NCBI GenBank assembly: GCA_014382585.1
Contig: JACNJL010000059.1
Location: 1 to 49,943, forward strand
Source: Limisphaerales bacterium
GTDB lineage: Bacteria; Verrucomicrobiota; Verrucomicrobiia; Limisphaerales; UBA1100
DNA length: 49,943 nt
Direction: 5' to 3'
This document shows positions 7,278-45,071 of the stretch, piece by piece. Position numbers and translations under genes: made by a program. Every line of letters begins with the position of its first letter. Within the stretch, counting starts at the first letter, position 1. Below the pieces are notes generated by a model that saw only the letters and a program-made list of their open reading frames with translations, made no database searches and was not told where the DNA came from.

Positions 7278-8753
7278 ATGAAAATTGGAAAACGAATTTT
7301 GCTGATGCTCGCGGCCCTTGTGACGGTTGCGCTACCCGCCGCCGAGAAAAACATCGTCTTCGTCATCGCCGATGACCTCAGCCCCACGCTTGGTTGCTAC
7401 GGTGATATGACCGCCGTCACGCCGAACATCGATCGCCTCGCCGCTGACGGCACGCTCTTTCGCTACGCCTTCGCCACCACCGCCAGTTGCAGCGCCAGCC
7501 GCTCGGTCATACTCAGCGGACTGCACAATCATCGCAACGGCCACTACGGTCACCTCCACGCGTATCACAAATTCAGCAGCTTCCCGTGGGTACAGACGCT
7601 GCCCGTGCTGCTCGCCAAAGCCGGCTACCGCACCGCCCGCGTTGGCAAACATCACAACGGGCCGGAGGATATTTATTTCTTTGAAACAAAAATCAATGCC
7701 AACAGCCGCAGCACCGTCGAAATGGCCAACAGCTGCGAGGCATTTATTAAGGCCGACGACAACAAGCCGTTCTTTTTATACTACGCCACCAGCGACCCTC
7801 ATCGCGGCGGCGGCGACGCCAACGAGCTGCCGCACAAACCCAATCGGTTCGGCAACAAACCCAACAAAGGCGCGTACCCCGGCGTGAAGGAAGTTTTTTA
7901 TGACCCCGCCAAAGTCACCGTGCCGCCTTTCCTGCCGGACACCCCCGAGACCCGCGCCGAGCTGGCGCAGTATTATCAGAGCACCTCGCGCGTGGACCAA
8001 GGGCTCGGGCGGTTGATGGAGATCCTCAAGAAAAACGGCAAGTGGGAAAACACGATTATTATTTTCACCAGCGACCACGGCATGGCCTTCGCCGGCGGCA
8101 AAACCACCGTCTACGAAGGCGGCCTTCGCGTGCCCTTCATTGTACGCAATCCGTACCAAAAAGAACGCGGCAATACCAACAACGCGATGCTTTCCTTCGT
8201 GGACATCGTGCCGACGCTGCTCGACTTCGCCGGCGGTTACGACGCCAAGACCGGCGCCGCCAAACCCGAACTGGCCATGATGCCCGCCGGTCGCGGCACC
8301 AAAAAAGGCCCGTACAAATTTCACGGCCGCTCATTCCTCCCCATCCTCGCCGATAAAAATCCGAAGGACTGGGATCAAGTCAACGCCAGTCACACCTTTC
8401 ACGAAATCCAAATGTACTACCCCATGCGCGTCGTGCGCGACCGCAAGTACAAACTCATCTGGAACATTGCCCACCCGCTCCCCTACCCCTTCGCCAGCGA
8501 TCTCTGGGCTGCGCCCAGTTGGCAGGCACAATGGAAAAAAGGGCAAAGCGCCCCGTACGGAAAAAAGACCGTGCGCGAATACATCAACCGCCCGCAGTTC
8601 GAACTATTCGATATCAGCGCCGACCCCAACGAAGCGGTCAACCTCGCCACCGACGCGAAATACGCCAAGGTCTTGGAAGAATACAAGGCGAAGCTGAAAA
8701 AATTCCAGCAAGATACGCAAGACCCGTGGGTGCTCAAGTGGCGCTACGAGTAG
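7278..8753 (+). CDS. secreted sulfatase (alkaline phosphatase superfamily, family S1-like)
   Basis: 491 aa from the ATG at 7278. That start gives a good signal peptide (MKIGKRILLMLAALVTVALP); a longer frame from 7179 begins in repeat-derived sequence and is unlikely. Metal-binding NIVFVIADDLSPTLGCYGD is followed by the formylglycine site CSASR at Cys71-Arg75, a CxAxR variant of the usual C/SxPxR. SDHGMAF and an IIFTSDHG segment form the second metal site. It hydrolyses sulfate esters, most plausibly on algal or host polysaccharides, in the periplasm or outside. Activation needs a formylglycine-generating enzyme that is not in this window. Confidence 0.92.
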   Translation: MKIGKRILLMLAALVTVALPAAEKNIVFVIADDLSPTLGCYGDMTAVTPNIDRLAADGTLFRYAFATTASCSASRSVILSGLHNHRNGHYGHLHAYHKFSSFPWVQTLPVLLAKAGYRTARVGKHHNGPEDIYFFETKINANSRSTVEMANSCEAFIKADDNKPFFLYYATSDPHRGGGDANELPHKPNRFGNKPNKGAYPGVKEVFYDPAKVTVPPFLPDTPETRAELAQYYQSTSRVDQGLGRLMEILKKNGKWENTIIIFTSDHGMAFAGGKTTVYEGGLRVPFIVRNPYQKERGNTNNAMLSFVDIVPTLLDFAGGYDAKTGAAKPELAMMPAGRGTKKGPYKFHGRSFLPILADKNPKDWDQVNASHTFHEIQMYYPMRVVRDRKYKLIWNIAHPLPYPFASDLWAAPSWQAQWKKGQSAPYGKKTVREYINRPQFELFDISADPNEAVNLATDAKYAKVLEEYKAKLKKFQQDTQDPWVLKWRYE

Positions 8754-8756
8754 GGT

Positions 8757-8878
8757 GAAATGACTCAGGCCGAGGGGAATCCCCAATGGCCCAATAAAGC
8801 TCCAAACCGTATTGAGTCATTGATTTTTGGGACTTCCTTGGGGGCTTGGACATTGGAATTTTGGGCATTCTCCCCGAG
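8757..8878. repeat. dispersed intergenic repeat, copy 2
   Basis: After the sulfatase stop, words such as ATCCCCAATGGCCCAA, CTTCCTTGGGGGCTTGG and TTTTGGGCATTC recur in the same style as at 457-546 and 34492-34618. Left and right halves are loosely complementary. Confidence 0.65.
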
Positions 8879-8991
8879 TTGTCCCCACATTATCCACACT
8901 TCATTTTTCTCAAATAGAACTGTTTTTACGGTGTTTCCGGTCACGAGGGAGATAACTTCCGAGGTTGTCAACAGCCTCTTTCGCAGCCTGT

Positions 8992-9008
8992 TTGGCACTC
9001 AAATTGCT
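8992..9008 (+). promoter_or_regulatory. sigma-54 (RpoN) type -24/-12 promoter
   Basis: TTGGCACTCAAATTGCT contains the invariant GG (8994-8995) and GC (9006-9007) separated by exactly 10 nt, and matches the consensus TGGCAC-N5-TTGCW at every fixed base. Initiation would be expected near 9018-9021, just before the ATG of a 31-codon frame at 9023. Transcription in this direction then opposes the gene at 9132-9764. The promoter match is seen directly; activity is inferred. Confidence 0.6.
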
Positions 9009-9022
9009 ATGTTACCATTGCA

Positions 9023-9118
9023 ATGAAAAACTTGGCCCCGATTGACATTTTTTTCCTGTGCCTCACCGCCGGCACCGCTGCGTTCGCAGTCGTGTGCATG
9101 GTGATGATGAGAGCATGA
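9023..9118 (+). CDS. putative 31-aa single-span membrane peptide
   Basis: ATG at 9023 to TGA at 9118 encodes MKNLAPIDIFFLCLTAG, then TAAFAVVCMVMMRA. Residues 8-28 form one uninterrupted hydrophobic span flanked by a short polar N-terminus and a C-terminal Arg. No Shine-Dalgarno sequence is present, but the sigma-54-like promoter just upstream would start the RNA within a few bases of the ATG. The peptide is too short to assign to a family. A chance frame is possible; the promoter position and membrane-span composition argue for a real micropeptide. Confidence 0.35.
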   Translation: MKNLAPIDIFFLCLTAGTAAFAVVCMVMMRA

Positions 9119-9131
9119 AGCGCCGTTTGCC

Positions 9132-9764
9132 TTATGAAAACCGATCGTCGGTCCAAGGGTCGGCGGTGTTGGAATAGCCGCGCACTTCCCAGAAACCGAG
9201 GATGTCGCGATCGAGAAAAATGATTTCGCTCACCCACTTGGCACCTTTCCACGCGTAGAGCTTGGGAATAATCACCCGCGCCGGGCCACCGTGTTCGGTG
9301 GTAATGGGAGCAGCGTTCCACGTGTGGGCGATGAGGGTATCATCGTCCATCACGGCATCAAACGTGGTGTTGGTGGAATAACCGTCGTAACCCTTGTAAA
9401 ACACGTGGCTCACTTCGTCCTTGGGTTTCACCAATTCCGTAAGCGTGAAAAACGAAACTCCGCCCCATTCCATTTCGTACTGGCTCCAAGTGGTGACGCA
9501 GTGGAAATCGCTGGTGTCGGCAAACTGATCGAGCGCCATAAACTGCTCCCAATCGAGCGTCACCGGATTCTCCACCAACCCGTGAATTTTCAACCGCCAA
9601 TCCTTGCGCGCCACTTCCGGCTGAATGCCCATATCAAGCACCGGAAAATTTTTGACCTCCCGCTGCCCCGGCGGCAGTCGATCCGTGGAACGCACCACGC
9701 GAGGCGCCCGCCCCGCGCGCTTCGCCGCCCAACGCTCTTTCGCGGCAATGTATTTATCCTTCAT
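9132..9764 (-). CDS. sulfite oxidase-like molybdopterin-dependent oxidoreductase
   Basis: 210 aa, the size of short single-domain molybdopterin oxidoreductases. Recognisable blocks include LPPGQREVKNFPVLDMG, DWRLKIHGLVENPVTLDWEQ, the molybdenum-ligating Cys89 in DFHCVTTWS, EHGGPARVIIPKLYAWKGAK and the C-terminal YSNTADPWTDDR. There is no twin-arginine signal and no haem domain, so it is likely cytoplasmic; electron acceptor and substrate are unknown. Its ATG at 9764 overlaps the 3' end of the toxin gene by 11 nt, so translation may be coupled to the toxin-antitoxin unit. Confidence 0.9.
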   Translation of the reverse strand: MKDKYIAAKERWAAKRAGRAPRVVRSTDRLPPGQREVKNFPVLDMGIQPEVARKDWRLKIHGLVENPVTLDWEQFMALDQFADTSDFHCVTTWSQYEMEWGGVSFFTLTELVKPKDEVSHVFYKGYDGYSTNTTFDAVMDDDTLIAHTWNAAPITTEHGGPARVIIPKLYAWKGAKWVSEIIFLDRDILGFWEVRGYSNTADPWTDDRFS

Positions 9765-10062
9765 CGGTTAGCTTAGGTTCCCCGCGCGCGCCGTGCCAAA
9801 TTCTGTGGATTTCAATCAGTTTCGAATCCGGATACACGCTATAGAAAATCCGATATGATTTGAAAACCCATTCACGAATGACTCGGCCCTTCCTCGTGCA
9901 AAAAATCCGGCCCATTTCAGGCATAGATGCCAACCGAAAAGTTCGAGTCAGTAGTGCATCTCCGAATTTGAATGCGGCCCCGGGATTGTCCTTTGCGATG
10001 TACGCGACGATAGCTTCCAAGTCACCGATTGCAACTGGCGAGAGATTTACTTTGAAATCCAT
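9754..10062 (-). CDS. RelE/ParE-family toxin
   Basis: 102 aa with the family pattern: LSPVAIGDLEAIVAYIAKDN at the N-terminus, a central MPEMGRIF, then REWVFKSYRIFYSVYPDS and the late IHRIWHGAR. ParE toxins inhibit gyrase and RelE toxins cleave mRNA; the two cannot be told apart here, but the IAKDNP and WHGAR segments look ParE-like. It overlaps the antitoxin upstream by 16 nt and the molybdopterin oxidoreductase downstream by 11 nt. The antitoxin-first order is the usual type II arrangement. Confidence 0.87.
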   Translation of the reverse strand: MDFKVNLSPVAIGDLEAIVAYIAKDNPGAAFKFGDALLTRTFRLASMPEMGRIFCTRKGRVIREWVFKSYRIFYSVYPDSKLIEIHRIWHGARGEPKLTDEG

Positions 10063-10232
10063 GAGCGCAATTGCTTTCGAACCTCTTCCACCGGCACTCC
10101 CTCGCCGCGGTCAAGCTGTTCAATGCTTCGCTCAATGCCTGCAATCAATTCCATTTGATCAAAGATTTCATCCATCGTGGCCTCGTCTGGCATGTTTCCA
10201 ACAGTTTCGAGTACCTGAGCTTTAGCGGTCAT
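10047..10232 (-). CDS. probable antitoxin of the RelE/ParE pair
   Basis: 61 aa (MTAKAQVLETVGNMPDEATM at the start), acidic and helical, resembling the small Phd/ParD-like partners that accompany ParE toxins with a DEIFDQMELIAGIERSIEQL segment. There is no clear DNA-binding ribbon. It starts at the ATG at 10232 and its end overlaps the toxin start by 16 nt, consistent with translational coupling. Assigned mostly by context. Confidence 0.75.
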   Translation of the reverse strand: MTAKAQVLETVGNMPDEATMDEIFDQMELIAGIERSIEQLDRGEGVPVEEVRKQLRSWISK

Positions 10233-12268: not shown

Positions 12269-12952
12269 ATGTTCAAGGCGGCGGACTTATTTGACCTCAG
12301 CCAAACCGAGCACGCCGCCCTCTTTGATGGCGACGGCCCGGCGTGGGAGGTGTTGCCGCGCATCAAAGATTACCTCGCCGACAATCTGCAGCTGACCAAT
12401 CACGCCACCGTTTCGTCCGGCGCGGTAGTAGGCGAAAATGTATTTCTCGGCGAAGGCACGGTGGTGGAGCCGGGCGCGACCATCATCGGCCCGGCGATCA
12501 TTGGCGCGAATTGCCAAATTCGGCACAACGCGTACATCCGCGAAAATGTCATCATCGGCGACAACTGCGTGATCGGCAATTCGTGCGAGTTAAAAAACGC
12601 GCTGCTGTTCAACAACTGCCAAGTGCCGCATTTTAATTATGTGGGCGATTCGATTCTGGGCCATCACGCGCATCTCGGTGCGGGGGTGGTGTTGTCCAAC
12701 TTCAAATCGCTCCCGGGCGATGTGACCGTGCAGCACGGGGAGGAAAAGATCGACACCGGCCTGCGGAAATTCGGCGCGCTGATTGGCGATCACGCAGAGC
12801 TTGGCTGCAACAGCGTGCTCAATCCCGGCAGCATCATCGGCCGCCGCAGTGTGGTGTATCCCAATGCGAACTGGCGCGGCGTGCTGGCGGCGGATCGGAT
12901 TGCAAAGCACCGCGGGGAGATGGAACTTGTGGAGCGGGATGCTTCACGATGA
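12269..12952 (+). CDS. left-handed beta-helix (hexapeptide repeat) acyltransferase-like protein
   Basis: 227 aa. After about 45 helical residues (FDLSQTEHAALFDG) comes a long run of hexapeptide repeats such as GAVVGENVFLGEG, GPAIIGANCQIRHNAYIREN and VIIGDNCVIGNSCELKNALL, ending in NPGSIIGRRSVVYPNANWRG. This fold is used by sugar N-acyltransferases and by the acetyltransferase half of GlmU; no nucleotidyltransferase domain is present. It likely acetylates a sugar nucleotide. The stop overlaps the dinG start (ATGA), so the two form an operon, without an obvious functional link. Confidence 0.82.
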   Translation: MFKAADLFDLSQTEHAALFDGDGPAWEVLPRIKDYLADNLQLTNHATVSSGAVVGENVFLGEGTVVEPGATIIGPAIIGANCQIRHNAYIRENVIIGDNCVIGNSCELKNALLFNNCQVPHFNYVGDSILGHHAHLGAGVVLSNFKSLPGDVTVQHGEEKIDTGLRKFGALIGDHAELGCNSVLNPGSIIGRRSVVYPNANWRGVLAADRIAKHRGEMELVERDASR

Positions 12953-44072: not shown

Positions 44073-45071
44073 GTGAAACAATCCATATTACGCGCGCTTA
44101 CGATTTCATCGCTGGTTCTATTTTTGGGTCAAATTCAGGGGGCAACGGTGCCGGCTGCGATGCGCTCAATTTTCCAACCGCCGCTCACGGCACTGGATCG
44201 CCTGCCACGCAGCGGGGAGGATCAGGCTAAAGTCGATCTCGGACGGCATTTATACTACGAAAAACGCCTGTCCAGTAACAATAAAATCGCCTGTAATTCG
44301 TGCCATTTGCTCGATAAATACGGCGTGGATGGGCTGGATTTCTCGCTGGGCGTGCCCGGCAAACCGGTGGGGCGAAATTCGCCAACCACTTACAACGCGT
44401 TTTTCCATATTGCCCAATTCTGGGATGGCCGTGCTGCCACAGTCGAAGAACAGGCAAAAGGCCCCATTTTAGCCGGAAAAGAGATGGGAATGCCCAGTGC
44501 CGCCGCCGTGGTGGCCAAGCTGAAGGGCATCCCGGAATATCCGCCGCTCTTTAAGAAGGCGTTTCCACGGGATAAGGATGCGGTGACGTTTATGAATGTC
44601 GGCACGGCGATCGGGGCGTTTGAGCGGAATTTGGTGACACCAGGGCGGTTTGATGAATATCTCGCCGGCAAAACCTCCGCACTCACTGCAAAAGAACAAA
44701 AAGGCCTGAAAACGTTTGTCACCACCGGCTGCGTGACCTGTCACACCGGCCCATTGGTGGGCGGGAATAGCTATCAAAAGCTCGGTCTGGTGAAGCCTTG
44801 GCCGAATCAAGGGGATCCGGGGCGTTCGGCGATTGTGGGCGATGATGCGTTTAAGATGTTCTTCAAAGTGCCATCATTGCGGAATATTGAAAAAACCGGT
44901 CCGTATTTTCACGATTCCAGCGCAAAGACGCTGGAAGCAGCTGTCACCAAAATGGCCAAACACCAGCTTGGCCGCGAATTGACCGGTGAACAGCTTGGGG
45001 ATATCGTGTCATTCCTCAAGAGCCTCACCGGTAAAATACCCGAGGAATACATCAAAAAACGCCCGTTCTAG
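44073..45071 (+). CDS. di-haem cytochrome c peroxidase
   Basis: 332 aa from GTG at 44073. After a signal peptide (about residues 1-23) come the two haem sites CNSCH (Cys74-His78) and CVTCH (Cys220-His224). FWDGRAATVEEQAKGPI and FKVPSLRNIEKTGPYFHDSS are family hallmarks of the CcpA/MauG group. It reduces hydrogen peroxide in the periplasm with electrons from small cytochromes; such enzymes need both haems. It stands alone, divergent from the porin-like gene. Confidence 0.93.
   Translation: MKQSILRALTISSLVLFLGQIQGATVPAAMRSIFQPPLTALDRLPRSGEDQAKVDLGRHLYYEKRLSSNNKIACNSCHLLDKYGVDGLDFSLGVPGKPVGRNSPTTYNAFFHIAQFWDGRAATVEEQAKGPILAGKEMGMPSAAAVVAKLKGIPEYPPLFKKAFPRDKDAVTFMNVGTAIGAFERNLVTPGRFDEYLAGKTSALTAKEQKGLKTFVTTGCVTCHTGPLVGGNSYQKLGLVKPWPNQGDPGRSAIVGDDAFKMFFKVPSLRNIEKTGPYFHDSSAKTLEAAVTKMAKHQLGRELTGEQLGDIVSFLKSLTGKIPEEYIKKRPF

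Follow-up and report, generated by a model that had tools for sequence, protein, structure and literature searches.

A probable sigma-54-dependent gene for a 31-residue membrane peptide in a family of Limisphaerales

A consensus sigma-54 promoter stands almost on the start codon of a 31-codon frame in a 49,943-nucleotide stretch of a Limisphaerales genome (the window), and this raises the question of whether the pair is a real gene and, if so, what its product does. A reading of the DNA from its letters and open reading frames (the sequence-only reading) had offered two answers, an RpoN-controlled membrane peptide or an antisense RNA to an adjacent molybdopterin oxidoreductase/toxin unit. We conclude that the locus is probably a conserved one-gene unit, in which a sigma-54 promoter would give a leaderless or near-leaderless mRNA for a 31-residue inner-membrane peptide. 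The family was found via a rare promoter placed on a start codon, which means that a bare promoter motif can reveal a real gene invisible to annotation. The features of the locus are collected in Table 1.

Table 1. Features of the peptide locus, in coordinates of the window
Feature	Position	Strand	Remarks
31-residue single-TM micropeptide gene	9023..9118	+	Product MKNLAPIDIFFLCLTAGTAAFAVVCMVMMRA; frame intact in 7/7 congeners; profile matches in two other genera
Sigma-54 promoter TTGGCACTCAAATTGCT	8992..9008	+	-24 TTGGCAC, -12 TTGCT; zero mismatches to consensus; 16/17 positions invariant in 7/7 congeners; -24/-12-like site at the same position in two other genera (5 genomes)
Predicted transcription start site (inferred)	9019..9020	+	19 nt past motif centre (rule from the excerpt of PMC4591121)
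TTATCCACA	8890..8898	+	Predicted DnaA box; perfect match to the consensus TTATNCACA
CTGTTTTTAC	8920..8929		Conserved block, 8920-8928 invariant in 7/7; possible regulator site
Imperfect palindrome GAYAACC-N5-GGTTRTC + AACAG	8951..8974		8951-8956 and 8964-8974 invariant in 7/7; candidate activator or repressor site

The promoter and the frame behind it

Only TGGCACTCAAATTGCT, at 8993 to 9008, matches TGGCACN5TTGCW exactly in the window, and it has the exact GG-N10-GC spacing that the sequence-only reading had claimed; the ATG of the frame follows 14 nt past the site. The motif alone is little proof, because at up to two mismatches the window shows no enrichment (40 sites observed versus 31.9 expected), and the case is therefore carried by the exact match and its conservation. 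Over the whole genome there are 14 exact matches, against 3 for a reversed control pattern. According to the available excerpt of PMC4591121, the transcription start lies 19 bp past the centre of the sigma-54 motif. By this rule the 5' leader is predicted to be 3.5 nt in the window, within the 2 to 5 nt estimated by the sequence-only reading, and 1.5 to 3.5 nt across the peptide genes of the homologs; the peptide mRNA should therefore be leaderless.

The frame itself is present as described. Its best 19-residue hydropathy window begins at residue 9 and has a mean Kyte-Doolittle value of 2.39, and among the 115 ATG frames of 25 to 40 amino acids in the window it alone reaches a 19-residue mean of at least 2.0. 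The earlier description of residues 8 to 28 as all hydrophobic is wrong in detail, since residue 8 is an aspartate and two threonines and one glycine lie within. The peptide consists of a short polar cap with a P-[IV]-[DE] motif and one helix rich in alanine, glycine, and threonine (TAGTAAFA), and Cys25 is invariant in all ten aligned family members. None of the ten matched a Pfam profile, and the single NCBIfam match, in one of the ten, was at chance level (E 0.2) and not credible; PDB sequences gave no match to the peptide. Among viral contigs, 82 stretches fit a pattern and none was confirmed, so a viral origin of the peptide was rejected. The peptide thus belongs to no family that could be found: Pfam, NCBIfam, PDB sequences, viral contigs, and the genomes of the order beyond its own family (293 genomes in all) gave no credible relative.

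Conservation within the genus

The region from 8760 to 9140 was searched against 40 genomes, the window's own and its relatives. It was found in all seven genomes of the genus, here called the congeners (the window's own genome, G000, and G001 to G006), and elsewhere only short, weak matches were seen. The -24/-12 element with GG-N10-GC spacing is exact in the window and in all seven congeners, and the 31-codon frame and the 14-nt gap between site and ATG are likewise kept in all seven. Site, spacing, and frame are thus conserved together. Identity in the alignment is 0.97 over the promoter, 0.87 over the frame, 0.68 upstream, and 0.31 past the stop codon. The frame evolves as a protein: 19 of its 31 residues are invariant, the variable sites are distributed 10/3/17 over the three codon positions of 32 codons, stop included (chi-square P value of 0.007), and pN is below pS in all 21 congener pairs. 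Because the frame is kept in every congener, with this codon-position bias, pN<pS, and these 19 invariant residues, we consider it very probably protein coding. The conservation that the sequence-only reading had proposed to look for was found in both parts, in the promoter (Table 1) and in the intact frame with its consistent pN<pS. An 11-nt block inside the frame, 9059 to 9069, is invariant in all seven congeners, synonymous sites included, and hints at a second constraint.

The surroundings of the pair are far less stable. In the window, the minus-strand neighbor at 9132 to 9764 encodes an Oxidored_molyb protein and ends convergently, 13 nt past the peptide stop codon, and the next plus-strand gene, at 12269, encodes a hexapeptide-repeat protein; the arrangement had been read correctly at the outset. 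The molybdenum cofactor (Moco) oxidoreductase gene lies downstream in G000, G004, G003, and G002. In G005, G001, and G006 it is replaced by a gene on the peptide's strand for a membrane protein of about 200 to 230 amino acids (L018 1913-2602, L020 1093-1746), the G005 copy of which had no Pfam match. A ParE-type toxin gene at 9754 to 10062, with a 61-amino-acid frame before it (9754 to 10232 overall), is absent from this place in G003. The proposal of an antisense RNA to the oxidoreductase/toxin unit does not survive these differences, and an antisense RNA to the Moco oxidoreductase was rejected because the downstream gene is not conserved. A short dispersed repeat was also seen in the window at 8819 to 8876; several similar stretches, about 80 to 87% identical, occur elsewhere in G000 and G004.

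Homologs in other genera

A profile of the seven congener peptides was run against 293 genomes of the order. It matched a peptide in a second genus (G007, E 7.6e-12) and, weakly, peptides in a third genus, g5 (G010, G013, G014, and G016, E 0.002 to 0.017 per genome). The homologs of G007, G013, and G010 were built into a later profile, A4, where their low E values arise by construction; the G014 and G016 homologs do not differ from that of G010 over the profile stretch, and G017 was left out of A4. The case for homology in g5 accordingly rests on the independent E values together with the promoter at a fixed spacing. In G007 the promoter is TGGCATCAGGATTGCT, in the four g5 genomes it is TGGCAC-N7-GCT, and in all five the first in-frame ATG follows exactly 12 nt on; the form common to both genera is TGGCA[CT]-N7-GC[AT]. 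The peptides have 33 amino acids in G007 (MRFGLKPIEVFFVCLTGGTAAFALVCVLLMLRG) and in G010 (MEDSNMKAGPIDYIFAALTALTVTICVGCILLM). The -12 element is degenerate in g5 (AAGCT, ACGCT), which counts against the one-gene unit proposed here. So does a probable homolog in G017 (E 5.9e-5), which has no sigma-54 site within 160 nt.

Promoter and peptide occur together in 12 of the 20 family genomes, separated by 12 or 14 nt. No credible homolog was found in 7 of the 20, several of which are incomplete, or beyond the family among the 293 genomes of the order. Four of the weak matches outside the family (E 0.001 to 0.1) were inspected (G069, G024, G140, and G178), and none had a -24/-12 site immediately before a full-length frame of this kind; the remaining ones were counted as chance without individual inspection. 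The carrier records are Verrucomicrobiota genomes, mostly metagenome assembled (ANT-112, ANT-88, AH-558-L06, bin84o, FRAM_RAS_EGC1617_bin25, and SZUA-1035), and from the isolate names we read the carriers as marine.

In G007 the peptide gene still lies behind a sulfatase gene, as in most of the genus. In g5 its neighbors are a LysR gene on one side and a class II tRNA-synthetase gene on the other, and because these are entirely different, promoter and peptide seem to travel together. Genomic comparison indicates a unit that is kept while its surroundings change. One g5 locus (L061 1640-1655) also has, near the peptide promoter, a divergent sigma-54-like site, TGGCACGAAAATAGCT, with one mismatch and aimed at the LysR gene.

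The sigma-54 system of the genome

The window's own genome has an rpoN gene (G000:C36, E 4.9e-60), as do 16 of the 20 family genomes, the four without it being 59 to 88% complete. The same genome encodes four proteins with strong PF00158 matches and a receiver-AAA-Fis layout, and Pfam confirmed the receiver and the Fis helix-turn-helix in the two of the four that were scanned. The check for rpoN and enhancer-binding proteins that the sequence-only reading had called for thus came out in its favor, and with promoter, spacing, and frame in 12 of 20 family genomes its suggestion of an RpoN-controlled membrane peptide has gained support.

Perfect sigma-54 sites also precede a flgB-like gene (Flg_bb_rod, E 2.3e-4) and genes for FliW, flagellin, and an N_methyl pseudopilin, and two more precede frames with a GFTLIELLVV motif, read by eye. 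Other perfect sites fall within long frames, such as those of L006 and L009, and may be there by chance. The ATG lies 11 nt after the perfect site at the flgB-like gene (L003, G000:C20:10663-10678) and 12 nt after it at a gene for a 64-amino-acid TM protein. The predicted leaders are 0.5 and 1.5 nt, and a start codon on the predicted sigma-54 start site therefore recurs in this genome. The 64-residue protein has a C-terminal TM segment (L007 1529-1723, in G000:C28). Its gene has the sigma-54 site at 12412-12427, preceded at 19 nt by a DnaA box, and runs divergently from a parA-like gene; all five genomes aligned retain the frame, the promoter, and the box. It becomes testable whether leaderless mRNAs are the rule from Verrucomicrobia sigma-54 promoters.

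Sigma-54 (RpoN)-dependent promoters serve envelope and motility genes, as stated in the excerpt available of Francke et al. (2011, PMC3162934). Like the promoters described there, the peptide promoter has a -24/-12 site with GG-N10-GC spacing shortly before a start codon, and other sites in the same genome precede flagellar and pseudopilin genes; unlike them, it would serve an orphan peptide of 31 residues whose leader is predicted to be only a few nucleotides long. The titles and abstract openings of papers listed for sigma-54 in Verrucomicrobia, for leaderless sigma-54 small proteins, and for RpoN small membrane proteins described no such unit.

Possible function and alternative explanations

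On the explanation that we favor, one of the response-regulator-type activators of the genome would fire the sigma-54 promoter, RpoN-dependent transcription would yield a near-leaderless mRNA translated as leaderless, and the peptide would insert in the inner membrane as a single helix. That helix might then dock on a larger membrane protein and tune it, within a sigma-54 envelope and motility programme, a step that we put forward only tentatively. The polar P-[IV]-[DE] cap, the helix rich in alanine, glycine, and threonine, and the retained Cys25 make the peptide suited to packing on a larger membrane protein. KdpF, CydX, AcrZ, and MgtS are single-helix proteins of 25 to 50 residues that act on a larger membrane partner. 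The window peptide is like them in size range and in its predicted single helix, and unlike them it matches no Pfam or NCBIfam family credibly. Most likely, we infer, it is a single-helix membrane regulator or small subunit.

A toxin-like role of the peptide is possible, and its size, its single TM helix, and its want of relatives would all fit a type I-like toxic hydrophobic peptide, silenced by a tight sigma-54 promoter or by an unseen antisense RNA. We nevertheless think this unlikely, since each of 12 genomes has just one copy and the gene is under purifying selection. Neither a terminator nor an antisense promoter of the sigma-70 type was seen near it, the region from 8600 to 9400 having no sigma-70-like site, and Rfam gave no match, although these negative results do not disprove an antitoxin RNA. 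The peptide could instead be a leader or a translational coupler for the gene that follows, as the same-strand membrane-protein gene after it in G005, G001, and G006 and the tRNA-synthetase gene in g5 might suggest; with no close codirectional gene behind it in G000, G004, G003, and G002, and with the peptide staying while the following gene changes, such a role seems very unlikely. A further alternative is a transcript that works as RNA, regulating the Moco oxidoreductase by antisense pairing or acting in trans, with the frame incidental. The codon-position bias and pN<pS speak against it, as do a frame that is kept while the downstream gene changes, the poor conservation past the stop codon, and the lack of an Rfam match, and these leave it highly improbable even though the convergent gene end close behind the stop codon and the block at 9059 to 9069, invariant even at synonymous sites, would suit it.

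Upstream elements and the DnaA box

Under the favored one-gene unit, the promoter should answer to an activator, and a distal activator site of the usual kind was not recognized upstream of it, which counts against that explanation. Four upstream blocks contain runs invariant in all seven congeners, at 8886-8893 (at the TTAT[CT]CACA box), 8920-8928, 8951-8956, and 8964-8974. The palindrome GAYAACC-N5-GGTTRTC, with zero or one mismatch, is present at the peptide locus in six of the seven congeners and at 11 places outside it across the seven. Nine of these 11 were checked and had no strong sigma-54 site nearby, the best having two mismatches (L167). The palindrome was therefore rejected as a genome-wide activator site, not being common to other sigma-54 promoters; it is special to the peptide locus and could serve a dedicated activator or repressor.

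The DnaA-box consensus in Table 1 is that given in the available part of PMC4447404. The box reads TTATCCACA in five of the seven congeners and TTATTCACA in two, so that it varies only at the free N position. No such box was found at the peptide gene in G007 or the four g5 genomes. Over the whole genome there are 18 copies of TTATCCACA, and 3 of them lie at most 100 nt upstream, on the same strand, of one of the 14 exact sigma-54 sites, where 0.0034 would be expected; this test was made after the pattern had been noticed, and the expected number is higher in AT-rich upstream DNA, a 5-fold increase giving a P value of 8e-7. The distances from box to site are 3 nt (fliW), 19 nt (the 64-residue protein gene), and 93 to 94 nt (the peptide). 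Among the 293 genomes of the order, the close-spaced pattern occurs nine times in six genomes, all six in the family, against one match for a control. It is kept at fliW in three congeners (L152, L146, and L153, with TTATCCACA 3 nt before the sigma-54 site) and at the 64-residue protein gene in five genomes; outside the genus, in G009, no small peptide gene was seen behind it.

DnaA bound at the upstream box might time or gate the promoter, and the peptide would then report the state of replication to the envelope or motility machinery, in addition to the one-gene unit and not in place of it. The conserved box in all seven congeners, the association with exact sigma-54 sites, and its retention at the two other genes point this way. 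The unequal spacing, the lack of the box in G007 and g5, the fact that the association was noticed after looking, and the chance that a site of this kind belongs to a sigma-54 activator all weigh against it, and we give the idea a low probability. Broader still, and quite a long shot, is a coupling of chromosome replication to the sigma-54 programme throughout the lineage, in which DnaA boxes would gate the leaderless transcripts of tiny membrane proteins (the 31-residue peptide and the 64-residue protein beside the parA-like gene) together with fliW. If it were true, motility and envelope state would follow the replication cycle. With the peptide locus in hand, it becomes testable whether DnaA acts at sigma-54 promoters.

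Sda is a small protein of Bacillus subtilis. The promoter region of sda contains several DnaA boxes, according to the portion of PMC4447404 available. The window peptide is like Sda in being a small protein with a DnaA box before its gene, and unlike it in having one perfect box and a sigma-54 promoter; the parallel is one of gene layout and bears on the DnaA reading alone. The titles and abstract openings of papers listed for DnaA boxes with sigma-54 and flagellar genes, and for DnaA with RpoN, described no such pairing. A local replication origin was rejected, as the GC skew does not turn sharply at 9 kb and the peptide has a single perfect box nearby. A pair of neighboring DnaA-like boxes, TTATCCGCA and TTATCCACA, lies in an intergenic region elsewhere in the genome (G000:C15, about 44403 to 44422, in L142).
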